In this document: in pieces, positions 8,149 through 55,803 of the stretch | Position numbering within the stretch: position 1 is the first letter of the stretch | Layout: the number at the start of each line of letters is the position of its first letter | DNA from: Alphaproteobacteria bacterium | Lineage (GTDB): Bacteria; Pseudomonadota; Alphaproteobacteria; Caulobacterales; Hyphomonadaceae | Assembly (NCBI GenBank): GCA_018222605.1 | Contig: JAAEZZ010000010.1 | Coordinates: 62,001 to 126,000 of the forward strand | Reading direction: 5' to 3' | DNA length: 64,000 nt | Notes under the pieces: generated by a model | Told to the model about the DNA's origin: nothing | Seen by the model: the letters and a program-made list of their open reading frames with translations, nothing else | Databases searched by the model: none | Program-made: the position numbers and the translations under genes

Positions 8149-8193
8149 AAAGCTGCTTCGGCAAGACTGACACCATTACAGAAAGGTTCACCG

Positions 8194-38315: not shown

Positions 38316-39350
38316 CTACTTCGCCTGCGCGCCACCTGGTGACAGATGCATATTACCCCAGAAGCTGCCGTTCGGGGCCTTCACTTGCGCCCCTGAATAG
38401 GACAACCCGCCAAGATAATCCGAGCTCAGAAGAAGTGGGCCATCAATGTCAACAAAGTCACAAAGCTGCGCAATCACGAAACTGGGGCACATGGAAAGTG
38501 ATGTCCCGCTCATGTTCCCAACCATGACTTTTTTGCCAGCCTCTCGCGCCATGCGCGCTAGTTTTATCGCATTCGTAAGACCGCCGGTCTTGTCCAACTT
38601 GATATTGATCATGCTGTACTTTGAAAGGGCAGCCGGCAGTTCCCCCGTATGCAGGCAGCTCTCATCCGCACAGACATCAATGGGGGACACCATGGTCTCC
38701 AGGGCATCATCGTCCCCTCTTGGCAAGGGCTGCTCCAGCATGGCAACTCCAAGCTCAGCCATCCCTGGCAAAATCTCCTCCAGCTGCTCAGCAGAAAAAC
38801 CCTGATTTGCGTCGACAACCAAGATCGCATCGGGGCGGGCAGACCGGATGGCCGTCAACCGCTCAATAGGCTCTTTAGCATCCAGCTTGATTTTCAGGAT
38901 AGGATAGGCAGCGGCCTCACCGGCCTTGCGACCCATCTCTTCCGGCGTCTCCTCTATGCCAATAGTATAAACCGTGCGGGTCTCCGCCTTTGGGGCAATA
39001 CCCGTCAGCTCCCAGATAGATTTTCCGGTTCGTTGCGCTTCCAGATCCCAGAGCGCACAGTCCAGAGCATTCCGTGCACCGCCCGGCGGCAGCAATTGCT
39101 GCGCCTCTTCAAGTGTTACCCCGCGTTCAATATCAGAACGCACTTTCTCCAACTCATTCCGGATCGTCTCTACAGTATCGTCGAGGTAATAGACCCCAAC
39201 GCCTTCCCCGCGACCAATCTTTCCCTCGCACCCAATTTCCAGGACAACTGTTTCAGATTGCCGAAATTCTTTCCCGGAAATTCGGAAGGGTGTTATGAAG
39301 GGCCATACGGCCCTGTGAATGCTGACGTCGTACTTCAACCCAATACCCAA
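38316..39350 (-). CDS. dgcA: Enolase-superfamily racemase/epimerase, DgcA-like
   Basis: A 344-residue muconate-lactonising-enzyme-type barrel enzyme. Catalytic Lys153-x-Lys155 (LKIKLD) and Lys251 (INIKLDKTGG) flank metal ligands Asp180 (VVDANQ), Glu206 (LEQPL) and Asp229 (CADES). This is the set used for 1,1-proton transfer in dipeptide epimerases and in DgcA, described as an N-acetyl-D-glutamate racemase. DgcN in the same regulon favours DgcA over L-Ala-D/L-Glu epimerase. No ATG opens the frame: TTG at 39350 or at 39338 is the likely start, implying modest translation. A terminator separates it from the receptor gene upstream. Confidence 0.82.
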   Translation of the reverse strand: MGIGLKYDVSIHRAVWPFITPFRISGKEFRQSETVVLEIGCEGKIGRGEGVGVYYLDDTVETIRNELEKVRSDIERGVTLEEAQQLLPPGGARNALDCALWDLEAQRTGKSIWELTGIAPKAETRTVYTIGIEETPEEMGRKAGEAAAYPILKIKLDAKEPIERLTAIRSARPDAILVVDANQGFSAEQLEEILPGMAELGVAMLEQPLPRGDDDALETMVSPIDVCADESCLHTGELPAALSKYSMINIKLDKTGGLTNAIKLARMAREAGKKVMVGNMSGTSLSMCPSFVIAQLCDFVDIDGPLLLSSDYLGGLSYSGAQVKAPNGSFWGNMHLSPGGAQAK

Positions 39351-41959: not shown

Positions 41960-42700
41960 AAATGTTGTGTCACCAGGTTCTGTCTCTAGAGAATGGCTCA
42001 TTACCTAGGGCGGGCGCATGCAGGAGGGATTGGGACTTACTTCATAAGACGCAGTGTCGTCTCTGCCTCACCGATACAGGCGGATCAGGTTCTTATCGGC
42101 AATACGAACGGTCGGCGGCCAGACCGGTCGCAACCGGCACGGAAATACTTATACCCCAGCTCTTTCAAGATGCGTAGGATCTCCGTCGAAGACAGCGACA
42201 GAGGGCTCGATCCTGCGCGGATCGCAAATGAAATAGCGACAGGCGCGAAGCTGATTGTGGATCCGAACCAGAACTGGTCGCCCGTACAGCTTGAAAAACA
42301 CACATCGACTGGGGGCAACTCAATATAGTTCTCTTCGAACACTCCCTCCCTGTCGGCGAGGATGGTTTCCAGGCCTCACTGGAAAGACGAATTGCGATCG
42401 CCGCAGATGAGTCCTTTACCGATGCAGCCTCAATAGCGTCGCTTCGCGATCGCTACGATGTCCTGAATATCAAACTCGACAAAACCGGTAGCCTGACAGC
42501 GACCCTTGAGGTCATCAGAGATCCCGCAAATGCTGAGTTAGACTTCATGATTGGCTGCATGGTCGGCAACTCTCTAGCGATCGCCCCTGCCATCATTATC
42601 GCCCAGCATTGTACCTGTATTGACCTTGACGGCCCGCTTCTACACAGCGCCGATGTAGATACACCGCTCCAATATAGTATTAGCCACCTATGCCAAGCAC
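41960..42700 (+). pseudogene. Decayed DgcA-like / dipeptide-epimerase-family gene
   Basis: Pieces of an enolase-superfamily enzyme appear in order but in different frames. Near 41975-42040 there is a remnant of the LPPGGARNAIDxALWD region. In frame from about 42150 comes ARIANEIATGAKLIVDPNQNW, the metal-ligand strand. After a frameshift near 42280-42310, LFEHSLPVGEDGF, AADESFTDA and VLNIKLDKTGSLT (42331-42500) follow, then IDLDGPLLHS to about 42700. The N-terminal third and a proper start are missing. It lies opposite in strand to the intact dgcA and looks like the wreck of a second racemase. Confidence 0.7.
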
Positions 42701-42735
42701 TGTACGTCACGACATCCTTACACGAGATGCCCCAA

Positions 42736-43128
42736 TCAATCGGCGGTGCTCAATTGTGCCAGATATTCGATTATCGCCGTCCGTTTCTCAGGTCGACGTT
42801 CACCGGGATAAGACATATTGGTTCCAGGCACATGCTTGCGCGGAGACTCTATAAAGGAGTCGAGCTCTTTGGCGTTCCAGACAAAGCCTACGTCTTTCAT
42901 TGCGCGCGAATAACGAAAGCCTTCCAGAATCCCAGCAGGACGTCCCACCACTCCTGCGAGACTCGGGCCCATCAGGGTTTGGCCGGGCACAACCGAGTGG
43001 CAAACGGCACATTGTCTTTTAAAGAGAGCCTCTCCTTCCGATGGTTCATCGGCCAAGGCAACGCCGGAGACCAAAGCCCACAGAACCATGGTTGGAATGA
43101 ATCTCGTGCGAGTGATTGGCATTTTCAT
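42736..43128 (-). CDS. Small periplasmic class I cytochrome c
   Basis: A 130-residue protein with signal peptide (cleavage near VALADEP). It has one haem site Cys40-x-x-Cys43-His44 (CAVCH) and a probable axial Met in GTNMSYPG, the layout of cytochrome c2/c550-type electron carriers. It is transcribed divergently from the amine dehydrogenase operon across 489 bp. A soluble one-haem carrier beside a periplasmic quinoprotein dehydrogenase is a likely electron acceptor taking electrons to the terminal oxidase; this pairing is inferred from position. Confidence 0.85.
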   Translation of the reverse strand: MKMPITRTRFIPTMVLWALVSGVALADEPSEGEALFKRQCAVCHSVVPGQTLMGPSLAGVVGRPAGILEGFRYSRAMKDVGFVWNAKELDSFIESPRKHVPGTNMSYPGERRPEKRTAIIEYLAQLSTAD

Positions 43129-43617
43129 ATCGTCTGCTTCCATGCTGATTCAAGTATTCTGCGGACAGAGATTATTTAAAATACCTGTCGTTCAATGAAC
43201 CTGATATGAAAAATGAAGAGGCATGTGCACAGTCTCTTTGCACACACACCTCTTCGCACACAACGCTTTCGCTCTCTGCTGCACGATCTACAGGCAAGGT
43301 TGTTCGCTGTTGAGGCATGGAAGGAAACCCAGGCGTATTTTTTCGTCCACCTTTGCGAGTTTTTACATCAAGAGAACCACGACGGGCACGAAAGTAATCA
43401 TTACCAATACGATTTTGCGCGATGCATGTGCGGACACGGGACCGATCCGCTTTATCGTCAAAATAAGTCTGGATCACGACCAATCCATCAAAATAACAAT
43501 TGTGTCAGATAGGGTGTCTTAGGGAAGAATTCAGTTTGGCACTCAAAAATTTTAAAGGGCGGTGACGACTTCCGGGGCAAGAGCAAATTTTTTGATCGCT
43601 TTAACGAGGAAGTTCAA
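43129..43617. other. Divergent intergenic region upstream of the amine dehydrogenase operon
   Basis: The 489 bp between the cytochrome c and aauB-like starts contain three overlapping frames of about 100 codons that do not resemble any protein I know and conflict with each other, so I treat them as non-coding. A GAGGAAG ribosome site for aauB lies at its end. The length suggests regulated divergent promoters. Confidence 0.45.
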
Positions 43618-44775
43618 ATGACTAAACACTGGTTCGGCGCATCGTTACTCGCGTTGTCTCTTTCTGTCTCATGGGCCAATGCTCAAGAGACAAGCATACC
43701 TGATCCGATCGAACCCGAGGAACTTACCGTAGAGGCGGAAATATCGCCTGGTGCCAACCTCTTTGTCGTATCACCATCTTGGGGAGGCGCTGGCGCGATT
43801 ACTATTCTCTCTACTGATGATCTTTCCTACAAGGCAAACTTCGCGACAGGAATGACCGCACAGTTCGCACTCGGACCGGATGCAAAGTTCGGCTATTCAT
43901 CATCTGCGTTTCCCGAGCGCATCACATATGGGCCGATAAAAGCCTACCTCCAGAAATTTGACATTAAGACACTTAAGACAACGCAGGAAATCGAGCTCCC
44001 TCCACAGATGGCTCAAACGGCTGCACAGCAACCGGCCTTGGTCATTAGTGCAGACAGCAAATGGGCTTTTGTACAAAATGCGACGCCTGCAACTTCAGTG
44101 TCTGTCGTAGACCTGACGGCTGGAGAAGTAGTTGCAGAAATTCCTAACCCTGGCTGCTGGGGCATCTATCTTGCGGAAAAGGGGTCAAAGTTTTCCAGCC
44201 TTTGCGGCGATGGAACCATGCTGACTGTTCAGCTTACGTCCAAAGGGAAACTGAAGAGCCAAGCGTACAGCGATCAGGTATTCGATGTCGAAAGCGAACC
44301 CCTCTTTGTCCACTCCGTTCGGATAGACGGAAACCTCACCTTCTCGACCTATGATGGCAAGTTCGTCACAATTTCTGATAAAGACAAAAAAGCCAAGCTT
44401 CTGGACAGCTGGTCTTATACGGATGGTATTGAGGGCAATTGGGCACCGGGCGGATACGAGATCCTCGCCTACAACGAACCTAACGGCATCATGTTCGTGC
44501 CGATGCACCCAGACGCTGAAGACGGCAGCCACAAGTTTGGCGCAGAAGAAATTTGGGCCATCGACATGAAAGAGAAAAAGGTTCTCTATCGTTCGCATGT
44601 CGAGCACATGACCCACATCGTTGTGACAGACGATGCGGAGGCGCCGGTCCTGTTCGGTGTAAACAGCCATGGTGGCTCGGTTTATCGCTATGAAATCGAC
44701 CCCACAGCGAAATTTGCCGCGAAGTACACAGGCTCTCTGGAAATCCAGGACGCTGGCTATTTGGTGGTGGAATAA
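43618..44775 (+). CDS. aauB: TTQ amine dehydrogenase large (heavy) subunit, AauB/MauB-like
   Basis: A 385-residue periplasmic beta-propeller protein with a Sec signal (ALSLSVSWANAQ). Family features are the early segment ISPGANLFVVSPSWGGAGAI, repeated blades such as ALVISADSKWAFVQNATP, and the C-terminal region HMTHIVVTDDAEAPVLFGVN. It is slightly shorter than methylamine dehydrogenase heavy chains. The large subunit packs against the quinone-bearing small subunit in an alpha2-beta2 enzyme that oxidises primary amines to aldehyde and ammonia. Gene order B-E-D-A plus a monohaem cytochrome matches the aromatic amine dehydrogenase cluster of Alcaligenes more closely than mau clusters. Confidence 0.85.
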   Translation: MTKHWFGASLLALSLSVSWANAQETSIPDPIEPEELTVEAEISPGANLFVVSPSWGGAGAITILSTDDLSYKANFATGMTAQFALGPDAKFGYSSSAFPERITYGPIKAYLQKFDIKTLKTTQEIELPPQMAQTAAQQPALVISADSKWAFVQNATPATSVSVVDLTAGEVVAEIPNPGCWGIYLAEKGSKFSSLCGDGTMLTVQLTSKGKLKSQAYSDQVFDVESEPLFVHSVRIDGNLTFSTYDGKFVTISDKDKKAKLLDSWSYTDGIEGNWAPGGYEILAYNEPNGIMFVPMHPDAEDGSHKFGAEEIWAIDMKEKKVLYRSHVEHMTHIVVTDDAEAPVLFGVNSHGGSVYRYEIDPTAKFAAKYTGSLEIQDAGYLVVE

Positions 44776-44777
44776 GC

Positions 44778-45347
44778 ATGGGTCAAAGCATGCTTATTCT
44801 TTTACAAACGACTGCTGCGTTTTTCCTGGCCTTGCTGTTTTTGCGCGCAGCACTTCACAAGCTGGGAGACAGGTACCGCTTTCAGGGAATATTGGCTGAC
44901 TACGGACTTGTTCCGGAAAAGGCGCTTAGCTTCATAGCCTTTGCGGCACCTACCCTTGAATTGGCTACGACAGTGATGCTGATTATTCCATCAGTCCGGC
45001 TTGTCGGGGCAGTGCTTGCGGCGAGTTTATTGGCAGGCTACGCCATAGCGATAGCAGTAAATCTCGCACGTGGTCACCACCTTGTGGATTGCGGCTGCGG
45101 TGGAGCACCGGAGCCAATCAGCTGGAAACTTGTCGTCCGGAATGCCGTCCTCGTCGGACTGATCGCACCTACAGCAACGGGTTTGGTGTTCCCCATAGAC
45201 TCCAGCCTCGCGCTGGATGTGACCTCCCTTGGTATCGCTACGCTCGCCCTGCTCGTCTGGATGACGGGAGAGACTATGCTCGCCAATAACCGGCGGATGA
45301 ATGAGGACCTTCCGGGTCCAGCAACAACATGGAGCACTGCACAATGA
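44778..45347 (+). CDS. aauE: MauE/AauE-like membrane protein for TTQ dehydrogenase maturation
   Basis: A 189-residue integral membrane protein with about five hydrophobic helices. The motifs FLRAALHKLGDRYRFQGILADYGLVP and VDCGCGG are typical of MauE. MauE and MauD are needed for export, folding and disulfide formation of the small subunit. MauE carries a Cys pair (DCGCG) that could pass electrons to the thioredoxin-like MauD. It starts 2 bp after the large-subunit stop, and its own stop overlaps the aauD start (ATGA), so translation is coupled. Confidence 0.85.
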   Translation: MGQSMLILLQTTAAFFLALLFLRAALHKLGDRYRFQGILADYGLVPEKALSFIAFAAPTLELATTVMLIIPSVRLVGAVLAASLLAGYAIAIAVNLARGHHLVDCGCGGAPEPISWKLVVRNAVLVGLIAPTATGLVFPIDSSLALDVTSLGIATLALLVWMTGETMLANNRRMNEDLPGPATTWSTAQ

Positions 45348-45940
45348 TCAGCATCCTTAGCTTTACTGTAATCGCACTCTGGCTGGTCGTGGTGGCAATG
45401 GCCGTGATGATGTGGGTGATGCTCCGCCAGATCGGGGTACTGTATGAACGTGTCGCCCCCGTAGGCGCCCTGATGGACCAGGCGGGACCGCAAGTGGGCG
45501 AGGCAAGCCCGGTTTTCCCGCTGCAAAGCCTTACAGGCGGCAACGTTCGTGTCGGGGCATCTGGCACGAAGGCAATGCTCGTCTTCTTCCTGTCGCCAAC
45601 GTGCCCGGTCTGCAAACAACTTTTGCCCGCTCTTGCAGGAATTCAGTCTGCTGAAAAAGAGTGGCTGGATGTAGTACTCGCCAGTGATGGTAACCAGGAC
45701 AAGCATCTGGAATTCATCACTCGCCAGAAGCTTTCAAATTTCCCCTATGTCCTCTCGACAGACCTTGGCATGGCGTACCGGGTCCAGCGCCTGCCCTTTG
45801 CGGTTCTGGTCGACCAGTCCGGAACTGTGAAGGCCAAAGGCCTGATCAATAACCGGGAGCAACTGGACAGCTTGTTCAATGCTCTGGACGCTGGCGTAGC
45901 CTCCTTTCAGCAAATGAAATCCATCCGGGAGGCAGGATAA
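45344..45940 (+). CDS. aauD: MauD/AauD-like thioredoxin-fold disulfide protein
   Basis: A 198-residue protein from the ATG at 45344, whose ATGA overlaps the aauE stop; an in-frame ATG at 45329 is less likely. An N-terminal membrane anchor (VIALWLVVVAMAVMMWVML) is followed by a periplasmic thioredoxin-like domain. The active site is Cys87-Pro-Val-Cys90 in FFLSPTCPVCK, with a cis-Pro region LPFAVLVDQSG. It should form or isomerise the many disulfides of the amine dehydrogenase small subunit. It lies between aauE and aauA, the order seen in mau and aau clusters. Confidence 0.88.
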   Translation: MISILSFTVIALWLVVVAMAVMMWVMLRQIGVLYERVAPVGALMDQAGPQVGEASPVFPLQSLTGGNVRVGASGTKAMLVFFLSPTCPVCKQLLPALAGIQSAEKEWLDVVLASDGNQDKHLEFITRQKLSNFPYVLSTDLGMAYRVQRLPFAVLVDQSGTVKAKGLINNREQLDSLFNALDAGVASFQQMKSIREAG

Positions 45941-46012
45941 TGCCCCAGACGGAGTAACAGATGAACGAAGACCGCTTTGAAAAGAAGACCTTTAAATTCA
46001 GGAGAGACAAGA

Positions 46013-46546
46013 GTGTTGAAAATCTTTGAACGTATCCAGAGCGCCCTTAGCGGCCTTGTTGAGACCTCAGCGCGCCAGAGTGCCCGGCAATATGGACGCC
46101 GCAGTGCCCTGGCCAGAATGGGCAGCATAATGGTGGGTGGCGCAGTATTCACAGCCTTGCCATTTGACCGGGCCTGGGGGGCGACCCCATCGGGCGATGG
46201 TACCTATAACGACAAGAGCTGTGATTACTGGCGGTATTGTGCACTCGACGGTTTCCTGTGCACTACGGCAGGCGGCAGCAAATCAAGCTGTCCGGTCGGC
46301 GCCGAAGCATCGCTCGTGTCATGGGTGGGCACCTGTCACAACCCGGCCGACGACAGAGACTATCTGGTCTCTTACTATGATTGCTGCGGGAAGACGGCTT
46401 TCTCGGGCGCTCAATTCTGCCTGCGCAGTGAAGGAGAACGCCCTGCCTACTCGATGGGTCTCCACAATGACATCAACTGGTGCATGTCCAATGCCAACAA
46501 AGGTTATCACTGCACTGTGGCACTTGTAGTTGGAGTGGCCGAATAA
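46013..46546 (+). CDS. aauA: TTQ amine dehydrogenase small (light) subunit, AauA/MauA-like
   Basis: A 177-residue precursor from the GTG at 46013, with AGGAGAG at 46000-46006. The long leader contains a twin arginine (GRRSALARMG, Arg29-30), as in MADH/AADH small subunits, which fold before Tat export. The mature part has CDYWRYCALDGFLC, SWVGTCHNP and NDINWCMSN. Trp104 and Trp156 are the expected pair that become tryptophan tryptophylquinone, with Asp79 nearby. Only ten cysteines are present (70, 76, 83, 93, 108, 124, 125, 136, 157, 167), fewer than the twelve of MADH, so one or more disulfides differ. Substrate (aromatic or alkyl amine) is not decided by sequence. Confidence 0.9.
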   Translation: MLKIFERIQSALSGLVETSARQSARQYGRRSALARMGSIMVGGAVFTALPFDRAWGATPSGDGTYNDKSCDYWRYCALDGFLCTTAGGSKSSCPVGAEASLVSWVGTCHNPADDRDYLVSYYDCCGKTAFSGAQFCLRSEGERPAYSMGLHNDINWCMSNANKGYHCTVALVVGVAE

Positions 46547-47055
46547 TGAAGCTGCGAACGCTTGCCTTTAGTATATGTCTTGTCACTCTGCTGGGCCTGA
46601 CATTGCCCATGATTACATCCGCTGAGCAACAGGCGCCTACGGGCATTGACGGTCACGACAAGGTCATCCGTGAGATGACATCTGCGAAGTCCCTTTACAT
46701 GCTAAAGTGTTCGGGATGTCACAGGGTGGATGGCACAGGCGCACCAGAGGCAGGCATTCCTCCTTTCCCGGGGTTCATCGCTCCACTGGCAAGGAATCCA
46801 GATGGACGTGTCTATATCTCTCATGTTCCAGGTATTATGGGGTCGAGACTATCAAACGAGCAACTCGCCGATGTCTTGAATTATGTGATTGATGAATGGG
46901 CCGGAGAAGATGCATCCGGCACACCAAGATTTACAGTTGAGGAGCTTGCCGCCCTGCGGGAAATTCCGGTTACAAACATTGTAGAATACCGACGAGATAT
47001 CGTAAACCAGTTAATTGAATCCGGCGATCCGGTTGCTGATTACCCATGGCCATAA
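46546..47055 (+). CDS. Monohaem cytochrome c of the amine dehydrogenase operon
   Basis: A 169-residue periplasmic protein whose ATG shares one base with the aauA stop (TAATG). A signal peptide (VTLLGLTLPMITSAE) precedes a single haem site Cys55-Ser-Gly-Cys58-His59 (LKCSGCHRVDG); a Met axial ligand may be in HVPGIMGSRLS. The position directly after the small-subunit gene equals that of the monohaem cytochrome gene in the Alcaligenes aau cluster. It could accept electrons from TTQ or take part in cofactor maturation. It is not a MauG: it has one haem, not two, and is about half the length. Confidence 0.87.
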   Translation: MKLRTLAFSICLVTLLGLTLPMITSAEQQAPTGIDGHDKVIREMTSAKSLYMLKCSGCHRVDGTGAPEAGIPPFPGFIAPLARNPDGRVYISHVPGIMGSRLSNEQLADVLNYVIDEWAGEDASGTPRFTVEELAALREIPVTNIVEYRRDIVNQLIESGDPVADYPWP

Positions 47056-47175
47056 CCTGACGATAAATCTCGTAAACACAATTCTCCAGTCACCAAAGAC
47101 TGGAAAATAAATGGTGCGCAGCCGGGGCCAGCTGCACGTCAAAAATAAAAAAGGGAGCCAAAATGTAAGCAAGCG

Positions 47176-47192
47176 CCTCCGCTACGCGGAGG
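47176..47192 (+). promoter_or_regulatory. GC-rich stem-loop in the leader of TonB receptor 4
   Basis: CCTCCGC (47176-47182) and GCGGAGG (47186-47192) form a tight 7-bp stem with a TAC loop, 38 bp before the chosen ATG, in an otherwise AT-rich stretch. The right arm contains GGAGG, so the hairpin could mask a ribosome-site-like sequence or mark attenuation. Confidence 0.4.
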
Positions 47193-47230
47193 GGCACAGG
47201 GAAGTTGTGTTCAAAATTGGGATAACAAAA

Positions 47231-49555
47231 ATGCGCGATCATAAATTGTTTTGTGGACTGAAGGAATATTCCACTTCGACGGCAAAGAAAAAATTGCTGG
47301 GAGTTTCCGGACTTGTGTTAGCATTTTCGCTGATGGTGGCACCCGCTGCCCACGCCGAAGATGACCCGGACAGCGAGAACCTGATGTTCGAGAAAGTCAC
47401 TGTGACCGCGCAGAAGCGGGAACAGGATTCCCAGGACGTCGGTATCGCGATTACAGCACTGAGCGGTGAGCAACTGGAAGCACTAGGGTATACAAATGCT
47501 CAAGACGTAGCGGCATTCTCTCCAGGCGTTGTATCAGTTCAGCCGAATGGAGAAGGCAGCTACTCCTTTGCCATTCGCGGCGTTGCCAATAACGACCTCA
47601 GCACAAACGTTGAAAGTCCTGTCGCCGTCTATATTGACGATGTTTACATCAGCCAAATGTCAGCAACCGGATTTCTGCTCTTCGATATTGATCGGGCAGA
47701 AGTTCTCCGTGGTCCACAGGGCACACTGTTTGGACGGAATGCCACCGGGGGGCTCGTTTCCTTCACCACGGTAAAGCCGGGCAAGGAATTTGAAGGTTAC
47801 GGCAGTGTCTCATACGGTCAGTATGATGACATGATGCTGGAAGGCGCCGTCAACATCCCGCTCAATAACTGGATCTCTGCACGCGTTTCAGCCGCGCAAC
47901 ATACTTCTACCGGATATGTTACCAACCGGGAGCATCCAGAAGAAAAACTGAACAACAATAATGATTACGGTTTACGCTTTCAGATTCTCATGGAGCCGAC
48001 GGATGACCTGAGCATCCTGCTGAATGCACGCGTTGGCGGGCAGGAAATCCGGACAGGTTTCTTTGAGTATAAATCTGCCGTGAACGGTGGCGGACAATAT
48101 ACGCCAGGAGAACTGAATGAGTTTCTGGGCAACTATGAAGATACCGATGATGATGTCTGGGCGGGTGACTACGACACTCGAGGTCATAATATCTCCGATA
48201 CCGAAGGTTATACGGCCACTGTCAACTGGGATGTTGGCAACTGGACACTGACCTCCATCACGGATTATCAGAAGAACTTCCGAGACTATATTGAAGATAC
48301 CGATGCGACCCCTGTTCGCGCATACGAGTATTTTCAGACCAATGACGCAGAGCAGTTCTCTCAGGAACTTCGCGCCTCCACCGAAATCGGCCCCATCGAT
48401 TTCGTTACGGGCCTGTATTACATGGATCTCAGCAGCTCGGATTCCACCGGCGGCATTGCACCACTTATGTATACCGACCCAGACAATGGTATCTTTGAAG
48501 AAGATGTCATGACCGATCCGACACTGGCGAATGGTGACCGGACACCATCGGAATCCTCGACCAAATCCGCATCGATTTTCGCCCAGGGAGAATACAAGTG
48601 GCAGGATTTCACATTCATTGGCGGTCTTCGCTACATTAACGAAAAGCGCGACTTCGTTTCCACTCGCCAGGATGTGCACTTCGACGAGAATGCCACAAGC
48701 GGTCTCGATCCTCGCACGATTGTCACCTACACCTATTCCACGTTCGATCCTGCGGAGCGAGAGTTCGACATGTGGTCATGGCGGGCCCAAGCGAACTACC
48801 AGCCTACTGAGGATGTCCTGTATTATCTGAGCTGGAACCGGGGCGTTAAATCAGGTGGCTTCAGCCAACCCCCTTACGACCCAACATCTGCACTTCTGAC
48901 CTCTCCCGAAAACCTGACCTACGAACCGGAAGAGCTGGATGCCTATGAGGTCGGCATGAAGTGGGATGCCATACCTGGATATCTTCGGATCAACGGTTCA
49001 GCGTACTACTATGATTACGGAAACTATCAGGCGTATACGAGCTTCCCAGGAAGCCTGGGAAGCGCAACGATCAATGCTCAAGCTAAAAACAAGGGGGCAG
49101 AAATTGAAATCCAGGCTGCTCCTATTGACGGCCTCAGCACCCAACTGGGCATCGGGTATGCAGACATCAAGGTTACCGACGTCATCGGCTTTGAAGGTAT
49201 GACATTGACGTCTGTCAATTCACCGGAATGGAATGTGAATGGTCTGGTTCGCTATGAATTCCCAGTTGGAAAATGGGGCAACCTGGCCCTTCAGGCAGAT
49301 GCCCAGTATCAGTCTGAGCATTATTTCGGTCTTGATGTGACGCCCGCCACAACAGAAGACGGCTACACTGTGGGGAATGTTTCGGCGACTTGGCTGCCAG
49401 CAGACGCTGACTGGAAATTCAGTCTGTCCGTCGAAAACGTGACTAACGAGAAATATCTGGTCCAGACCTTCGACCTGTCCGACTGGATTGGCATGATTGA
49501 AGAGTACTACGGCAAGCCGCGCTGGGTCAGAGCAAAGCTAAGCTGGGAGTTTTAG
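47231..49555 (+). CDS. TonB-dependent receptor 4 (amine dehydrogenase locus)
   Basis: A 774-residue receptor. The ATG at 47231 (MRDHKLF) gives a long signal peptide ending near APAAHAED; the frame is open to 47111 without a better start. TonB-box/plug: EKVTVTAQKREQDSQDVGIAI, VYIDDVYISQ, AEVLRGPQGTLFGRNATGGLVSF. The barrel ends WVRAKLSWEF. It lies 175 bp after the cytochrome gene in the same direction and may be co-transcribed with the amine dehydrogenase operon. Known amine dehydrogenase substrates pass porins freely, so a dedicated active receptor suggests a larger amine-bearing substrate. This is inference. Confidence 0.92.
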   Translation: MRDHKLFCGLKEYSTSTAKKKLLGVSGLVLAFSLMVAPAAHAEDDPDSENLMFEKVTVTAQKREQDSQDVGIAITALSGEQLEALGYTNAQDVAAFSPGVVSVQPNGEGSYSFAIRGVANNDLSTNVESPVAVYIDDVYISQMSATGFLLFDIDRAEVLRGPQGTLFGRNATGGLVSFTTVKPGKEFEGYGSVSYGQYDDMMLEGAVNIPLNNWISARVSAAQHTSTGYVTNREHPEEKLNNNNDYGLRFQILMEPTDDLSILLNARVGGQEIRTGFFEYKSAVNGGGQYTPGELNEFLGNYEDTDDDVWAGDYDTRGHNISDTEGYTATVNWDVGNWTLTSITDYQKNFRDYIEDTDATPVRAYEYFQTNDAEQFSQELRASTEIGPIDFVTGLYYMDLSSSDSTGGIAPLMYTDPDNGIFEEDVMTDPTLANGDRTPSESSTKSASIFAQGEYKWQDFTFIGGLRYINEKRDFVSTRQDVHFDENATSGLDPRTIVTYTYSTFDPAEREFDMWSWRAQANYQPTEDVLYYLSWNRGVKSGGFSQPPYDPTSALLTSPENLTYEPEELDAYEVGMKWDAIPGYLRINGSAYYYDYGNYQAYTSFPGSLGSATINAQAKNKGAEIEIQAAPIDGLSTQLGIGYADIKVTDVIGFEGMTLTSVNSPEWNVNGLVRYEFPVGKWGNLALQADAQYQSEHYFGLDVTPATTEDGYTVGNVSATWLPADADWKFSLSVENVTNEKYLVQTFDLSDWIGMIEEYYGKPRWVRAKLSWEF

Positions 49556-49683: not shown

Positions 49684-50871
49684 TCAGGCCTGCTTTCCCG
49701 ACGTATCCGTACGCATAAAATGGGCAAACCCGAACAAAATGATTGAGACCGCGACCAGAGTGTTTGCCGTTATCGAAACCTGGTGAAACAGGCTTCCTGT
49801 CTCAGACCCCAAACTGACGAGGGCTGGCCCTACTCCCATGCCGGCAAACGCCAATACAGGCAGCAAGGACGTCACACGATCACTCGTGTCAACGTCTGCC
49901 ACAGCGGCCATCATCAGGGGTAAGCCGGCACCCCAAGCGAACAGATACAAGCCAGTTGCCACAAAGAATGTGCTCACGCTCATCCCAGGCGCGAGTAGCA
50001 ACACACTCAGCACAATGAACAGTCCAGTGACTACGACAGGGCCGACGCGGCCGAACCGAGACGTGATCACTGCCGCCAATAACGAGCCCGCGATGGCAGC
50101 CACATTCCCGACGGCAAGCGCTTTGCCAATCACGGAATCAGGCAATCCCGCCGAGAGTCCCAATGCACCGGCAAATACCCACAGCACACCCACTGCGGCT
50201 GAAAACAGAAAATACGCGGCCGCCTTGAGCAGCACGGCTGGTCGAAAAGCGCTGGCGTCTTTTGAAATATGGCCTTGGGATTCCACGGTCTTCAGCTTGC
50301 CACCCAATGCCAATCCGATTGGAATCAAAAATGCCTGAAAGCATGCCATGAATGCCATGACAGGCAGAAGACCAGCCTCATTCGTCAGCCCCGGGATGAC
50401 CAATAAAAGAACCACCGCCACAATCGCCTGCAAAGTCAGTATAAACGCGAAACCACGATCTGGATCACTCGAGCCACCCACAATCGCTGCCGACAAGGCC
50501 AATAATATTCCCGCCCCAAAGCCGGCAATTACTTCCATGAACAAGGCACTCTGGAAACCCGGCATCAGGGCGACAGCAAACTGAGCTGAACAAGCCAGGA
50601 AAGCCGCAGAAACGGCGCTTACCCGGAAGGGCAGACGTCGTAAACAGATCGTTACGACCAGCGACCCGGTCGCGGTGCCGAGCAGGTTTGCCAAGCCTAT
50701 AAAGCCTGCCGCAGACTCCCCCATTCCATACGCATTGGCGACCAATGTCGCCAGCAATGGCATCGCAACAATTTGTGATACGGCCACCCCGCCCATGAGA
50801 ATAGCAGCAGTTACCTCTCTCCTCCCAGGTCCGACTTGGGGCGTTGTATTTGTAGACGCTAATTCCATCAT
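49684..50871 (-). CDS. MFS transporter
   Basis: A 395-residue inner-membrane carrier with about twelve hydrophobic helices. The segment between helices 2 and 3 (LRRLPFRVS) and the central loop (LGGKLKTVESQGH) fit the 6+6 arrangement of the major facilitator superfamily. The start codon overlaps the stop of the GMC dehydrogenase gene (ATGA), so it is the last gene of the dioxygenase-GMC-MFS operon and probably imports or exports the compound those enzymes act on. The family branch and substrate cannot be read with confidence. Confidence 0.88.
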   Translation of the reverse strand: MMELASTNTTPQVGPGRREVTAAILMGGVAVSQIVAMPLLATLVANAYGMGESAAGFIGLANLLGTATGSLVVTICLRRLPFRVSAVSAAFLACSAQFAVALMPGFQSALFMEVIAGFGAGILLALSAAIVGGSSDPDRGFAFILTLQAIVAVVLLLVIPGLTNEAGLLPVMAFMACFQAFLIPIGLALGGKLKTVESQGHISKDASAFRPAVLLKAAAYFLFSAAVGVLWVFAGALGLSAGLPDSVIGKALAVGNVAAIAGSLLAAVITSRFGRVGPVVVTGLFIVLSVLLLAPGMSVSTFFVATGLYLFAWGAGLPLMMAAVADVDTSDRVTSLLPVLAFAGMGVGPALVSLGSETGSLFHQVSITANTLVAVSIILFGFAHFMRTDTSGKQA

Positions 50872-52502
50872 CTGGGCGCATCCGCAGGGAGTATGTCATT
50901 GCCCAAAATATGGTCAGAGGCCTTCTCTGCCAGCATCAAGGTAGGTGCATTTATGTTCCCATTCGTGATGTTCGGAAACACGGACGAGTCCACCACCCTA
51001 AGACCCTCAACGCCGATAACCCGGCATTCCGAATCGACGACAGCCCCCGGATCATCCTCAGCGCCCATGCGGCATGTACCGCACGGATGATACGCGCTCT
51101 CGACCTCTTGCCTTACAAATGCATCAATATCTTCATCGCTGGAAAAATCAGGCCCAGGGGCGATTTCTCCCAGACTGTAGGCTTTGAGAGAGGGCTGTGA
51201 GAATATCTCTCGCGTTAGCCTCACACAGGACCGGAAGGCTTTCCAGTCTGCATCGCTTGACATGTAATTAAACTGGATTGACGGTGGCGCTGACGGATCT
51301 GAGGACGCTAGCCGCACCTGTCCGCGCGCTGTGGTTCGTCCGGGTCCAATATGCGCCTGGAACCCGTGAGCCTGAACCGGTTGACTGCCATCATAGCGGA
51401 TAGCTGCCGGCAGAAAATGATACTGGGCATCAGGATAGTCAGCAGAGTGATCAAGCCGCACAAATCCTGCGGTTTCAAAATGATTGGTCGCGCCGATGCC
51501 CGTTCGAGTCAGCAGCCATTGCAAACCCGCTACCCCTTTACTGACAGGGTTCATGTACCGGCGGAGCGTTATGGGTTGGTTGCAACGCATCTGGAGATAA
51601 ATCTCCAAATGGTCCTGCAAATTCTTCCCAACGCCGGGTCGGTCACTGACAACATCAATTCCATAAGACACAAGTTCGTCAGCTGCCCCAACGCCTGACA
51701 ACATCAGCAGTTTGGCGGAATTAAAAACCGAGGCGCTCAGGATAACTTCCTTGCGCGCCTTAATAACACGCTTCTTTCCCTTACGGATTAGTTCAACTCC
51801 TACAGCCTTCTTGCCTTGCCACAGTATTTTGCAGGCCAACCCCCGGTAAAGCGTGAGATTCTCTCTGTACAAGGCAGGCTTGAGGTAGGCATTTGCCGCA
51901 GACCACCGGCGCCCCTTCCAGATGGTCTGGTCCATCGGACCAAACCCTTCCTGATGGAGACCGTTGCAATCCTGTGTTTTCTGGAAGCCCGCTTCCTGCG
52001 CCGCGACCATGAACGCCTGGTCCAATGGGTGGGATTGCTTCGGAATTGTCACATGCATCGGGCCGTCCGTACCCCGGATATCAGGATCACCGCCTTCTAC
52101 ATTTTCCAGTTTCCGGAAATATGGCGCAACATGTCGTCCACTCCACCCCGAAGCGCCCTTGGATTCCCAAGCGTCAAAGTCTTTCGCGTTTCCACGAATA
52201 TAAACAAGGCCATTGATTGAAGAAGATCCGCCTAGAACCTTTCCGCGCGGTGCAGCGAGTTTACGCCCACCAAGATGCGGTTCAGGTTCGCTACGATACC
52301 CCCAGTCGTAGCGCTTCATGTTCATAGGATATGAAAGCGCAGCCGGCATCTGAATGAAGGGGCCCATATCCGTACCCCCATATTCAAGCAGGGCCACATC
52401 ATGCGCCCCTGAAGCAGAAAGACGGTTTGCCAGAACACAGCCAGCAGATCCCGCACCGACGACAACATAGTCCGCCGTACCGATTTCAAGTTTGCTGGCC
52501 AT
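50868..52502 (-). CDS. GMC-family FAD oxidoreductase (choline dehydrogenase-like)
   Basis: A 544-residue flavoprotein close in length to BetA. The FAD-binding GAGSAG motif is at 16-21, then GGRKLAAPRGKVLGGSSSING (GMC signature 1 region). GMC signature 2 is ASVFNSAKLLMLSGVG, and the C-terminal catalytic region has YHPCGTCRMG and GNINAPTLMLAEKASD. It should oxidise an alcohol to an aldehyde, passing electrons to the respiratory chain. The BetB-like aldehyde dehydrogenase at 55.8 kb and BetI-like repressors make choline or a related quaternary amine alcohol a plausible substrate. It starts 2 bp after the dioxygenase gene. Confidence 0.9.
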   Translation of the reverse strand: MASKLEIGTADYVVVGAGSAGCVLANRLSASGAHDVALLEYGGTDMGPFIQMPAALSYPMNMKRYDWGYRSEPEPHLGGRKLAAPRGKVLGGSSSINGLVYIRGNAKDFDAWESKGASGWSGRHVAPYFRKLENVEGGDPDIRGTDGPMHVTIPKQSHPLDQAFMVAAQEAGFQKTQDCNGLHQEGFGPMDQTIWKGRRWSAANAYLKPALYRENLTLYRGLACKILWQGKKAVGVELIRKGKKRVIKARKEVILSASVFNSAKLLMLSGVGAADELVSYGIDVVSDRPGVGKNLQDHLEIYLQMRCNQPITLRRYMNPVSKGVAGLQWLLTRTGIGATNHFETAGFVRLDHSADYPDAQYHFLPAAIRYDGSQPVQAHGFQAHIGPGRTTARGQVRLASSDPSAPPSIQFNYMSSDADWKAFRSCVRLTREIFSQPSLKAYSLGEIAPGPDFSSDEDIDAFVRQEVESAYHPCGTCRMGAEDDPGAVVDSECRVIGVEGLRVVDSSVFPNITNGNINAPTLMLAEKASDHILGNDILPADAPR

Positions 52503-52504
52503 AT

Positions 52505-53338
52505 TCAGTCTTCCAGGAGCGCTCGCGGGCTTCCGACTTCATACATGTTGATCTGGCCACTGCCCCGGCTGGTGCCGTCATAAACATCATAGCCAAGCAT
52601 GCTTTGAGCGCGTTCAGGAAGCCTGCGAACCTTATCCAGGGGAACACCCAGCCAGCTGTTCTCAACCGGCAGCAACCAGCCATGACAGTAGGACACGGAC
52701 AATCCACGCCGCGGAACACCGCTGACATTCTGCCCACCACCATGAAGGGTTTGCCCCGTGAATATGGCCACGGAACCAGGCGACATCACAGCCTGCGTAA
52801 TCTCTTCAGGTTCTGGCTCGCGCTCCAAATCCCATTTTTGGCTACCCGGGACAACAACCGTTGCTCCGTTTTCAGCCGTGTAATCACTCAGCGCGATCAT
52901 GACGTTCACGACAAGCGGAGACGCTGACTGCGCCGCGCGAGGCCAGGAATCATCATCGCGGTGAATTGGTTGCGCCGTCTCGCCCCCACGAATCTCGATC
53001 AGTTCTGCCGCACTAAGCCGGTAATCCGTACAGTTCGGTTTGAGTAATTGGTCCATCACAAACATGATGCGCGGATCAATCATCACATTCGGAAAGCTTG
53101 AGGCTTTTGCTGTCACGCCGTGGAGGCGAACGGTGTAAGAGCCAAGAAAGTCATCATACATGTTCTTTCGAACGCGCGGCTTGCACGCATCAATATGCGG
53201 CTGAAGCTCAGCATTCAGGGAATCTATCATGCTCGTCGGCAGAAAGTCTTCGACAATGACAACCCCATCATTCTCAATCGCCTTGCAAATATCCTCGCCG
53301 GAAGACGAGCCTGGCAAACGCTGCACGGTCGCACCCAT
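52505..53338 (-). CDS. Phytanoyl-CoA dioxygenase (PhyH) family Fe(II)/2-oxoglutarate oxygenase
   Basis: A 277-residue enzyme from the ATG at 53338, six bases after GGAGGG. The jelly-roll iron site is His126-x-Asp128 (IHRDDDSW) and His199 (FTGQTLHGGG), with Arg210/211 placed to hold 2-oxoglutarate. The family hydroxylates diverse small molecules, including ectoine and phytanoyl-CoA. It leads the operon with the GMC dehydrogenase and MFS carrier, 2 bp apart. One reading is that it hydroxylates a substrate (or demethylates an N-methyl group) to give the alcohol or amine oxidised next; the substrate is unknown. Confidence 0.87.
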   Translation of the reverse strand: MGATVQRLPGSSSGEDICKAIENDGVVIVEDFLPTSMIDSLNAELQPHIDACKPRVRKNMYDDFLGSYTVRLHGVTAKASSFPNVMIDPRIMFVMDQLLKPNCTDYRLSAAELIEIRGGETAQPIHRDDDSWPRAAQSASPLVVNVMIALSDYTAENGATVVVPGSQKWDLEREPEPEEITQAVMSPGSVAIFTGQTLHGGGQNVSGVPRRGLSVSYCHGWLLPVENSWLGVPLDKVRRLPERAQSMLGYDVYDGTSRGSGQINMYEVGSPRALLED

Positions 53339-53410
53339 CCTGTTCCCTCCAGATGTCATCATTATACATATGCTGGGTGCAAAATGCGCAAAAATAAGTA
53401 AATGGTCAAG

Positions 53411-53429
53411 CAATTACATTTATAAATTG
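53411..53429. promoter_or_regulatory. Operator CAATTACATT-TATA-AATTG in the PhyH/TetR control region
   Basis: The site has arms CAATT and AATTG. Its ten-base core CAATTACATT recurs on the other strand in the betB/HIBADH control region (55729-55738) with AATTG again 5 bases further. It lies between the divergent dioxygenase and TetR genes, where an autoregulating BetI-like repressor would bind. Confidence 0.55.
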
Positions 53430-53486
53430 CCACGTATATGACGCTACATATTGCACATAGACTTCCCTTTTGGGTTTGAACGACTT

Positions 53487-54134
53487 ATGCGAGAGACTAG
53501 CCGCTTCCCAGAAGCACGAACAGAGGCCCCGAAGAAACTGCCACGCCAACGACGCAACAGTGACGCGAGCCAGAGGCATCTAATCGATGCAACTATTTCA
53601 GCGATCTACAAGCACGGTTTCCATGAAGCCACGGCGCAGCGCATTGCCGAGGAAGCCGGTCTCTCAGCGGGAAATATCCACTATCATTTTGGCTCCAAGG
53701 AAGAATTGTTTACGGCCGCAATGCGGCAACTCATGTCCGACATCAGCGATACACTCGTATACGAACTCGGTAAGGCAGATACGCCCCTCGCACGTACGCA
53801 CGCCATCATCCACGCAAACCTTTCGGAGCGCCTGTATTCTCACCGCAACTGCTTCGTGTGGCTGCAATTCTGGTCGGAAACCGCCAGATCGGAAGAACTG
53901 GCGCGACTGGAGCGCATCAATGCGCAACGCTTTCACCGCAATCTGCTCGATGCCTTAGGCAAACTTCTGCCTCGGGACGAAGCAGAGAAAGTCGCCAGAG
54001 AGCTTGTTGCGATGGTGGATGGTCTGTGGATCCGCAAGGCCCAGGACAATGACTCAATTACGCCCGCCGCAGCTCGGAATTTGGTCTTCGCTTATCTGGA
54101 TCGCCGTCTCGGGTCGATCCCGCAGGCAGGATGA
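53487..54134 (+). CDS. TetR-family regulator, BetI-like (first of a tandem pair)
   Basis: A 215-residue repressor from the ATG at 53487; an in-frame TTG at 53451 would add 12 residues. The helix-turn-helix reads TAQRIAEEAGLSAGNIHYHFGSKEEL. The C-terminal half resembles BetI, the choline-responsive repressor, in FVWLQFWSE and VAMVDGLWIRKAQ. Its stop overlaps the start of the second TetR gene (ATGA). It diverges from the PhyH-GMC-MFS operon across a region carrying a CAATT-type operator, so it likely represses that operon and itself. A choline-like ligand is inferred. Confidence 0.9.
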   Translation: MRETSRFPEARTEAPKKLPRQRRNSDASQRHLIDATISAIYKHGFHEATAQRIAEEAGLSAGNIHYHFGSKEELFTAAMRQLMSDISDTLVYELGKADTPLARTHAIIHANLSERLYSHRNCFVWLQFWSETARSEELARLERINAQRFHRNLLDALGKLLPRDEAEKVARELVAMVDGLWIRKAQDNDSITPAAARNLVFAYLDRRLGSIPQAG

Positions 54135-54718
54135 CCGGCATGGGACGCGCTGAAAAGAAACTCTTGCGGAAGCAAAGCCTGATTGAGGCGACGGTGACGT
54201 GCGTGAACAAGTACGGTTACGCCGAATCGACCGTGCAACGTATCGCAGCAGAGGCCGGCCTGACCGGTGGCACCATTTATCGCCACTTCAACAACAAACG
54301 CGACCTGTTCGAAGCAACAATGCGCTACTTGTTGAGACTGGTCCTGGCCGAAGAGCGACTGGCGGTCGCCGAAGCAGTAAATGACAAGGATCGGCTGAAA
54401 GCGGTTATCTCTTCGAAGTTCGCGCCCTCTCTTTTCACTTCGGAATTCTGCACTGTCTGGTTACACTTCTGGGCACACGCCCAATCAGACCCCGCCTTCA
54501 CGCGGATCGAAAAATTGAGTGACCGCCTGCTGCGGCGCAGTCTTCAACGCTATGCATCGCGACTGATGCCAGAGCATGATACTGCTGATTTTGTTACAGA
54601 AATCACGCTGATCATAGACGGGCTGTGGATTGCGCACGCCCAGCGCGGATCGGAACTTAGCCCACAATCTGCCAATGAGGTTGCCCAAGGCTGCTTGGAG
54701 GCAAAGCTCGGACGCTGA
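54131..54718 (+). CDS. TetR-family regulator, BetI-like (second of a tandem pair)
   Basis: A 195-residue repressor overlapping the first by 4 bp. The helix-turn-helix is TVQRIAAEAGLTGGTIYRHFNNKRDL, and the BetI-like C-terminal elements are VWLHFWAHAQ and IIDGLWIAHAQRG. The two proteins share their layout but are clearly diverged, so this is an old duplication. Co-translation of two paralogous repressors suggests heterodimers or two operators with different affinity. An ATG at 54140 is an alternative start. It converges with the HIBADH-like gene. Confidence 0.9.
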   Translation: MTGMGRAEKKLLRKQSLIEATVTCVNKYGYAESTVQRIAAEAGLTGGTIYRHFNNKRDLFEATMRYLLRLVLAEERLAVAEAVNDKDRLKAVISSKFAPSLFTSEFCTVWLHFWAHAQSDPAFTRIEKLSDRLLRRSLQRYASRLMPEHDTADFVTEITLIIDGLWIAHAQRGSELSPQSANEVAQGCLEAKLGR

Positions 54719-54725
54719 GCCCTCT

Positions 54726-55637
54726 TCAGGCTTCCCAATGTAGCGGCCAGTCGCCTTCCAGCCGCAAATCTTCACCAACAGCATCCTCAATCAGCTTTGC
54801 AACATGTAGCTCTCCAGACCCGCCACCATAGGTCTCGGCGGCAGCAGCGAACCGCTCATGCACTCGTGATCCGATAGGGATTGGCACACCCCCCCGTTCC
54901 GCCAGCGCGGCACACAAGCGAAGGTCCTTCAGACAAAGGTCGAGTGTGAAGGAAGGGTCATAGTGGCCGGCAAAAATAGACGGAGCGTCATGCCTCGCGA
55001 CAAAACTGTCGCCAACACTGTCTTTGATGGCATCCCAGAGCACATCCAGCGGCACACCGGCCCGGCGGCCCAACATCAACCCTTCGCCTATCACCGCCGC
55101 GTGTGTGAACCAGAGGAAGTTGGTCACCAATTTCACGGCGTTACCGGTTCCCAGGCCACCACAGCGAATAACCCGCCCCATGCGCGACAGGATTGGCTCA
55201 GCCGCGTCCAGCGCATCGGCGTCGCCCCCAGCGAACAAGGTAAGCTGGCCACGCCGCGCCCCATCAACCGCGCCGGTCACAGGCGAATCAACCGTCTTCA
55301 CTCCCATTCCGGCTGCGATATCCGCAAGTTCGGCAACCAGACCGGCGTCATTGGTGGTTGTGTCCACCCAAACTGTGCCCCTGTCGATCCCCTCAAACAC
55401 GCCCTTGTCGCCACGCATAACCTTCTCGACGACAACAGGAGTGGGAAGAGACGTGATCACAATATCAACATCACGAGCACATTCGGCTGGGGCCTCCGCC
55501 CATAGCGCCCCAGCCTCAACATGGCTGTCGCCGCGCGCCCTTTCGATGTCGTGAACCTTCAAGTCCAGGCCAGAGCGCAACAGCACCATTGCCATGTTGG
55601 ATCCCATATTCCCTAGGCCGATAAATCCGATCCGCAT
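54726..55637 (-). CDS. 3-hydroxyisobutyrate dehydrogenase-like NAD(P)-binding protein
   Basis: A 303-residue beta-hydroxyacid dehydrogenase. The Rossmann motif GFIGLGNMGSNMA is at residues 4-16, the substrate-binding motif SPVTGAVDGARRGQLT at about 118-133, and catalytic Lys169 (GNAVKLVTNFL) is present. The family oxidises 3-hydroxy acids to semialdehydes or reduces small aldehydes such as succinic semialdehyde. It is divergent from the betB-like gene over 166 bp that contain the shared operator, so both are probably under the BetI-like regulators. A role in handling a C3-C4 hydroxy acid released from the substrate is an inference. Confidence 0.88.
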   Translation of the reverse strand: MRIGFIGLGNMGSNMAMVLLRSGLDLKVHDIERARGDSHVEAGALWAEAPAECARDVDIVITSLPTPVVVEKVMRGDKGVFEGIDRGTVWVDTTTNDAGLVAELADIAAGMGVKTVDSPVTGAVDGARRGQLTLFAGGDADALDAAEPILSRMGRVIRCGGLGTGNAVKLVTNFLWFTHAAVIGEGLMLGRRAGVPLDVLWDAIKDSVGDSFVARHDAPSIFAGHYDPSFTLDLCLKDLRLCAALAERGGVPIPIGSRVHERFAAAAETYGGGSGELHVAKLIEDAVGEDLRLEGDWPLHWEA

Positions 55638-55718
55638 AATTCCTGTTTCCTCCCATTTTAGCCCAGCAAGGCGCCTTTATCCTGTAGCCAGCCACACACC
55701 GGATGTTGCTCAAAAGCA

Positions 55719-55751
55719 CAATTGACAAAATGTAATTGATTGTGCAGTTAT
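55719..55751 (+). promoter_or_regulatory. Operator and candidate promoter between HIBADH-like and betB-like genes
   Basis: CAATT (55719-55723) and AATTG (55734-55738) frame a site whose reverse complement contains CAATTACATT, as at 53411-53420. It is nested in a wider inverted repeat GCACAAT (55716-55722) / ATTGTGC (55739-55745). A perfect TTGACA (55722-55727) overlaps it, with a weak AGTTAT -10 at 55746-55751, so repressor binding would block the promoter. Confidence 0.5.
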
Positions 55752-55803
55752 TTTTAGAGCTAATCTACCAGCCTCAAATCTGCAAGGGAAAAGGAAGCGC
55801 CTA

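Follow-up and report, generated by a model that had tools for sequence, protein, structure and literature searches.

The bis-Fe(IV) chemistry of MauG is the textbook route to tryptophan tryptophylquinone (TTQ). Clusters for aromatic amine dehydrogenase (AADH) without mauFGLMN are not new: the aau cluster that Chistoserdov reportedly described from Alcaligenes faecalis in 2001 is said to lack mauFGLMN and to carry a monoheme orf-2. In the methylamine dehydrogenase (MADH) system, according to PMC7876137 and PMC6405878, MauG acts on a precursor that is already mono-hydroxylated and finishes TTQ by oxidizing it over a long range. QhpG, LodB and GoxB are tryptophylquinone maturases too, but are given as flavoproteins in the excerpt of PMC7876137. 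Here an AADH-type cluster is described from a member of the Hyphomonadaceae, in a window of 64,000 nucleotides (the whole stretch analysed, positions 62,001 to 126,000 of contig JAAEZZ010000010.1). The cluster ends with a small cytochrome c, encoded directly after the TTQ-bearing subunit, which appears from its sequence to have lost the loop of the axial methionine and which has about an even chance of being the heme protein that matures TTQ in place of MauG.

Organization of the aau locus

Positions 43618–47055 of the window carry an intact AADH-type cluster, aauB-E-D-A-cytochrome c, followed by the gene of a TonB-dependent receptor.

42736–43143, minus strand: divergent canonical class I cytochrome c (PF00034, 33 bits; the Met of the GTxM motif is kept)
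43618–44775, plus strand: aauB, amine dehydrogenase large subunit (PF06433, 91 bits; the sole PF06433 match in the genome)
44778–45347, plus strand: aauE, MauE-like membrane redox protein (PF07291, 97 bits)
45344–45940, plus strand: aauD, MauD thioredoxin-like disulfide protein (TIGR02661, 189.4 bits against a cut-off of 188.6, in a scan begun at 45329)
46013–46546, plus strand: aauA, TTQ-bearing small subunit (PF02975, 170 bits; GTG start behind AGGAG)
46546–47055, plus strand: Met-loop-less (“VPG”) monoheme cytochrome c, candidate TTQ maturase (one CxxCH, then HVPG at the place of the c552 Met loop)
47231–49555, plus strand: aau-linked TonB-dependent receptor (PF00593 and PF07715; frame open from 47111)

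The host genome (3.70 Mb in 16 contigs, 99.97% complete) is Hyphomonas-like, and by its aau locus the nearest named relative among the best 80 of 327 is Hyphomonas beringensis, with 98% identity over the small subunit. The original prediction had read the order of genes as the AADH layout, with a TonB receptor downstream and a class I cytochrome c divergent, and the protein families and coordinates bear this out. It had also called the coupling of the operon complete, which is correct for the 2-bp gap between aauB and aauE, the ATGA overlap of aauE with aauD and the TAATG overlap of aauA with the cytochrome gene, but overstated for aauD and aauA; these are ~72 bp apart, the likely aauA start being the GTG at 46013 with AGGAG at 46000. 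Its statement that the window is without mauG and mauF agrees with a phmmer search using Paracoccus proteins (E 1e-3), in which MauF, MauG, MauJ, MauM, MauN and amicyanin have no match in the window. The CxxCH motif occurs in five long frames of the window, which are the two monoheme cytochromes and three frames inside or opposite longer open reading frames.

The A. faecalis cluster reportedly has the same aauB-E-D-A genes with a small monoheme cytochrome and no mauF/G/L/M/N, and both subunits of the window are best matched by AADH. The window adds the divergent canonical cytochrome and the TonB receptor, its small subunit has one disulfide fewer, and the absence of MauG is here searched genome-wide. 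The mau cluster of Paracoccus denitrificans (L189) shares the B-E-D-A core and the TTQ residues; however, mauF, mauC (amicyanin), mauJ, mauG and mauM/N were not found in the window, which has the loop-less cytochrome instead.

Enzyme subunits and TTQ residues

In comparison with structures in the PDB, the small subunit reaches 151 bits with AADH and at most 122 bits with MADH, and the large subunit 152 bits with AADH and at most 63 bits with MADH; the AADH structures matched include PDB codes 2AGL and 2I0R. The locus is predicted to encode a periplasmic AADH-type TTQ amine dehydrogenase (AauBA), which may act on aromatic amines such as tyramine or phenethylamine, together with the disulfide and folding helpers AauE and AauD.

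The TTQ tryptophans W104 and W156 of AauA and its catalytic aspartate D123, which we take to be the counterparts of W57, W108 and D76 of MADH, are invariant in 121 of 121 aligned small subunits. The alignment omitted 10 of 130 sequences with a variant CDYW motif, whose printed ends show, by eye, the same S/T-W, DCC and W-C motifs. The positions of C38 and C86 of MADH, presumably a disulfide pair, are both cysteine in 104 of the 121 sequences and neither is in the other 17, with no sequence having only one. AauA of the window has T85 and Q134 there, i.e. the disulfide has been lost in its clade. This loss could be taken to mean an enzyme without TTQ, but with both tryptophans and the aspartate invariant that reading is very improbable.

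Tandem or second aauBA pairs without aauE and aauD occur in L080, L095, L102, L042 and L155, laid out as BA-BEDA-cytochrome in two Pseudomonadales metagenome-assembled genomes (MAGs) and as BA-cytochrome in others, which suggests that several amine dehydrogenases share one helper set. A plasmid of Thermomicrobium roseum (L203) has two stretches resembling the MADH light chain (2780–3232 and 8001–8372) among hypothetical proteins, as well as an unusually long MauE-like protein, with no annotated large subunit or mauG nearby; these stretches are possibly a different use of the fold.

A c552-type cytochrome without the Met loop

By sequence comparison, the cytochrome that follows aauA represents a distinct c552-type family, new here, which is missing the ~18-residue loop of the axial Met and reads “VPG” at that place. 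The closest solved relative by sequence profile is c552 from Thermus thermophilus (PDB code 1C52, E ~4e-24). Fold and profile are alike, but the alignment passes from profile position 61 to 65 while 1C52 advances from 49 to 71, and the ~18 residues missing from the aau cytochrome are those which we take to carry the axial Met69. The AlphaFold2 model (pLDDT 93.3) has 1C52 as its top-ranking Foldseek match, at a modest level (E 1.5e-3, TM-score 0.61). The c552 fold and CxxCH are present, and since the motif is single the protein is not di-heme.

Where an operon has a second c552-type cytochrome, this one retains hairpin and Met in all 16 cases (list read by eye), and in seven aligned pairs of canonical and loop-less proteins the Met loop is absent only from the loop-less members. 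Among 113 distinct loop-less sequences, from which the frames of L087 and L204 were dropped for having no heme motif, the V, P and G of VPG are conserved in 111, 111 and 112. After CxxCH, neither Met nor His, Cys or Lys exceeds half of the sequences at any position aligned to the window protein (the most frequent Met is found in 54 of 113), and 12 of the 113 have no Met at all in this part. The possibility that the cytochrome is a fragment or relative of MauG was rejected, there being no sequence relationship (hhalign probability 5). The “hypothetical protein” after aauA in Novosphingobium was considered as a heme-less version and rejected as well, because CxxCH is present.

Distribution of the cytochrome and of mau genes

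The loop-less cytochrome is found in 115 of 119 AADH-type loci and in none of eight MADH loci, whereas mauF, mauJ and mauG are all present in the eight MADH loci and mauF/G/J/M/N were found in none of the 119 AADH-type loci fetched. The MADH loci, few in number and five of them from Paracoccus, are seven plasmid clusters (L189, L194, L195, L196, L199, L200, L201) and L158 from genome G759. Plasmids also carry AADH-type loci with the loop-less cytochrome (L190–L193, L197, L198, L202, L205), and a Sphaerotilus plasmid (L204) holds a remnant in which the matching cytochrome frame starts inside the heme motif. On the plasmid of Paracoccus sp. SMMA_5_TC (L190), the aau cluster has an SCO protein, a member of the tyrosinase family and several cytochromes on its flanks.

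The four AADH-type loci without the cytochrome comprise two at contig edges (L005, L033), a second aauBA copy (L155) in a genome whose full cluster (L156) has it, and L041, from a Burkholderiaceae MAG, as the sole true lack. The contig of L041 also carries two consecutive di-heme CCP/MauG-type genes (L259, contig positions 1772–4729) ~9–12 kb away, which, being one case, is suggestive only. The genes after its aauA are presumably DUF1329- and DUF1302-like, by reading of the frames alone. Counted by gene, 102 aauA, duplicates included, have within 1.25 kb a VPG cytochrome in 94 cases and a VNG variant in two; the other six are two contig ends, two first genes of a tandem, one split frame (L087) and L041. 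The loci include duplicates (L029/L171 of Hyphomonas beringensis, L030/L168 of Hyphomonas sp. CY54-11-8) and some short fragments.

Of 51 representative loci picked by hand, 50 contain the cytochrome, and the same number holds for aauB, for aauE and for aauD; the real families that follow in frequency are aldehyde dehydrogenase (21) and the TonB receptor (18). Another almost universally linked gene was sought among them and not found: two families at 36 of 51 are mostly antisense frames (52 of 62 and 56 of 60 members), and 11 members of the first are cytochromes that resemble the divergent cytochrome. The named families of these loci, several others being unnamed, include no flavoprotein family found repeatedly next to the AADH clusters.

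Genomes of the order and of the class of the host were searched for PF02975 and for a profile of the cytochrome (A2, 39 sequences), the latter at E 1e-12, set to exclude ordinary c552 proteins. PF02975 matches 19 of 398 genomes of the order, that of the window included, and the cytochrome profile the identical 19, with one copy each. The class sample of 385 genomes yields 13 with a PF02975 match, of which 12 are above the cut-off and the thirteenth, G603, is a stop-ridden fragment below it; the cytochrome profile matches the identical 12. Between 62 and 768 bp separate the PF02975 match from the cytochrome match downstream of it; only in G306, a fragmented draft, are the two on separate contigs. 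In both samples AADH-type enzymes are more numerous than mauG-bearing MADH, and on plasmids the two are about equally common.

MauG in genomes with an AADH-type enzyme

A genome-wide search, which the original prediction had put forward as a check, found no MauG-family gene in the host: PF03150 (CCP_MauG), TIGR03791 and a MauG profile built from seven proteins (A3) are all without a match, while PF03150 as a control matches in E. coli and Methanosarcina. The window is without mauG and mauF, and the genome search gave no MauG-family gene, so the claim that TTQ maturation must work differently here holds. A mauG that is present but was missed, through an assembly gap or divergence beyond the models, is hardly credible. 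PF03150 covers only part of the protein and the draft is in 16 contigs, but the genome is nearly complete, the same absence is seen in one- and two-contig genomes at 100% completeness, and the full-length profile is silent as well, with the PF03150 control working.

PF03150 was not found in 12 of the 19 order genomes with the enzyme, including the present one, and was found in seven. For the 11 class genomes besides the present one the corresponding numbers are six and five, the PF03150-free ones including single-contig and two-contig assemblies at 100% completeness. Among named genomes with an AADH-like small subunit (49 searched of the nearest 80 of 327 relatives), PF03150 is present in 28 and was not found in 21, among them Vibrio furnissii, both Chimaeribacter and Castellaniella caeni. 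In the order and class samples the PF03150 genes are on another contig than the AADH-type cluster or ~1.3 Mb off (G576). The full-length MauG profile was run on 29 genomes chosen not at random, 27 for the absence of PF03150 and two for its presence; it is silent in the 27 and matches in the two, G759 and G576. G759 has a MADH with mauF, mauJ and a di-heme gene ~1.1 kb from the small subunit, and its AADH-type cluster is on another contig.

Proposed role of the cytochrome in TTQ formation

The maturation puzzle raised by the original prediction is real and wider than this one genome; what the prediction missed is the cytochrome as the best candidate maturase, linked and devoid of the Met loop. 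Since MauG was not found and a heme protein lacking its ligand loop is almost always present, the cytochrome as the oxidant is the simplest proposal. Its likeness to MauG (PF03150, TIGR03791), a protein of two hemes and ~390 residues, is in the proposed role only. No proposal of a role for the aau cytochrome in TTQ formation was found in the open-licence literature, which was mostly screened by listing.

In the proposed mechanism, AauD and AauE would fold the small subunit and its first tryptophan would become mono-hydroxylated, as in preMADH. The open heme of the cytochrome would then react with H2O2 or O2 to give high-valent iron, which would oxidize the two tryptophans, so that the second oxygen would be inserted and the Trp-Trp bond formed. 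From the mature enzyme, electrons would pass to a Met-ligated cytochrome, or to azurin in other hosts. In the window the divergent cytochrome, with its Met invariant in a 13-row alignment (A4), is the probable electron acceptor. Azurin is reported as an electron acceptor of AADH in an excerpt of PMC10890351, and the reference list of PMC5286356 cites an AADH-azurin crystal structure; a linked acceptor would therefore not be needed everywhere.

Several points weigh against a role in maturation. In 45 of 95 sequences a Met follows the V of VPG within ~10 residues, mostly as VPGM as in Pseudomonas, the window reading VPGIM, so some members may have a Met ligand. The conserved Arg, Asn and Glu look ancestral to c552 rather than tied to a new activity, and to MauG itself the cytochrome is unrelated in sequence. 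MauG has two hemes, and a monoheme protein would need another way to gather oxidizing equivalents. As many AADH genomes do have PF03150 proteins (7/19, 5/11 and 28/49), a MauG-like helper may act from afar in these. Finally, the cytochrome sits directly after the small subunit, in the slot of amicyanin (mauC), which is an electron acceptor.

The amicyanin position favours a reading in which AADH depends on the loop-less cytochrome as its direct electron acceptor or relay. The loss of the loop would then expose the heme edge for docking to AauBA, and the maturase would be an unlinked, unrecognised enzyme. The near-obligate linkage and co-occurrence fit an acceptor equally well, and in most Pseudomonas loci no other CxxCH gene was found directly downstream in the same orientation. 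However, the axial Met loop, a part of the ordinary class I electron carrier, is exactly what has been lost. The second c552-type cytochrome keeps loop and Met throughout and the divergent cytochrome of the window keeps its Met, so that where such proteins stand beside the loop-less one an ordinary acceptor is already on hand; azurin, too, is a reported acceptor. An acceptor role is the chief alternative and a serious possibility, though one that we hold to be considerably short of probable.

The other almost universally linked genes are aauB, aauE, aauD and aauA, which would suit formation of TTQ in AADH with AauD, AauE and dioxygen or generic periplasmic oxidants, and no dedicated oxidase. 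The first hydroxylation of MADH is thought to be autocatalytic in the excerpt of PMC7876137. This route is unlikely, because the later steps in MADH need MauG and because one heme protein co-occurring with the AADH-type small subunit would be left unexplained.

Evolution of the two cassettes

In a tree of 96 small subunits, based on 111 columns, few for its size, the eight rows with mauG fall together in one branch (100/100) with a single change, and this branch is nested among rows without mauG on the midpoint-rooted drawing. The tree omitted 35 Pseudomonas loci as presumed near-duplicates, and every non-mau row in it is labelled VPG, including L041, which lacks the cytochrome, and second copies sharing one cytochrome. 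That MauG is the later solution is plausible, but would depend on the position of the root.

A wider reading, tentative and somewhat short of an even chance, is that TTQ is ordinarily made by a single-heme cytochrome c free of the distal ligand, derived from a c552 paralogue by deletion of the Met loop. This protein would be tied firmly to the TTQ small subunit in Alpha-, Beta- and Gammaproteobacteria alike, and di-heme MauG would be a later replacement in one clade, that of MADH.

The aau-linked TonB-dependent receptor

Seventeen of the 19 genomes of the order have a TonB receptor next to the cluster; in the remaining two, G233 and G306, the contig is cut. The best match of the window receptor is the aau-adjacent receptor in 15 of 28 other genomes, at 34–94% identity, with other full-length receptors listed for the same genomes mostly at 27–33%; the margin is small in G715 and G620 (34% versus 31–33%). 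In 98 loci with 3 kb flanks on both sides, a receptor is within 1.5 kb of the cluster in 21, plus five truncated loci, with two genomes counted twice and receptors defined by over 60 bits to that of the window, so that distant subfamilies may be missed. The receptor is downstream or upstream, and in G265, G022, G324 and G354 it belongs to other subfamilies and is not the best match. For the Pseudomonas clusters and for L035 (Phenylobacterium) the search to a distance of 1.5 kb found no receptor, and in L031 there is one 5 kb away. Six class genomes that carry the cluster gave no hit with the window receptor at E 1e-20.

The receptor thus recurs beside the cluster in relatives, often as an orthologue and in other genera too, and the possibility of an accidental neighbour was rejected for the Caulobacterales, although the link is not general. 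It is a lineage trait of Caulobacterales, some other alphaproteobacteria and two Pseudomonadales MAGs, and TonB uptake looks like a repeated lineage adaptation. Such bacteria use TonB receptors where others use porins, which is a plausible ground for the link. The suggestion in the original prediction that a dedicated receptor implies an amine too large or scarce for porins is weak, as the receptor was not seen beside Pseudomonas clusters or in the six class genomes; a lineage trait of this kind says little about the size of the amine and is no proof of its scarcity.

Neighbouring genes

Downstream, at 49684–57267, the window encodes a choline-dehydrogenase-like GMC enzyme (above the cut-off of the betA model), a PhyH dioxygenase, two BetI-type TetR regulators, and 3-hydroxyisobutyrate-type and aldehyde dehydrogenases, which looks like an island for the catabolism of quaternary or other amines. 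Short frames at 41993–42710 resemble, by eye, pieces of the enolase-superfamily gene at 38316–39350 and are apparently a decayed copy of it.

Implications

The recurring receptor link may help in finding out which amines these bacteria take up, and the paired loss of the C38-C86 disulfide is a natural experiment on the disulfides that TTQ enzymes require. If AADH-type enzymes are made without MauG, a second route to TTQ exists, and there is one named gene to test for it. A monoheme maturase, if true, would change ideas on what long-range protein oxidation needs.

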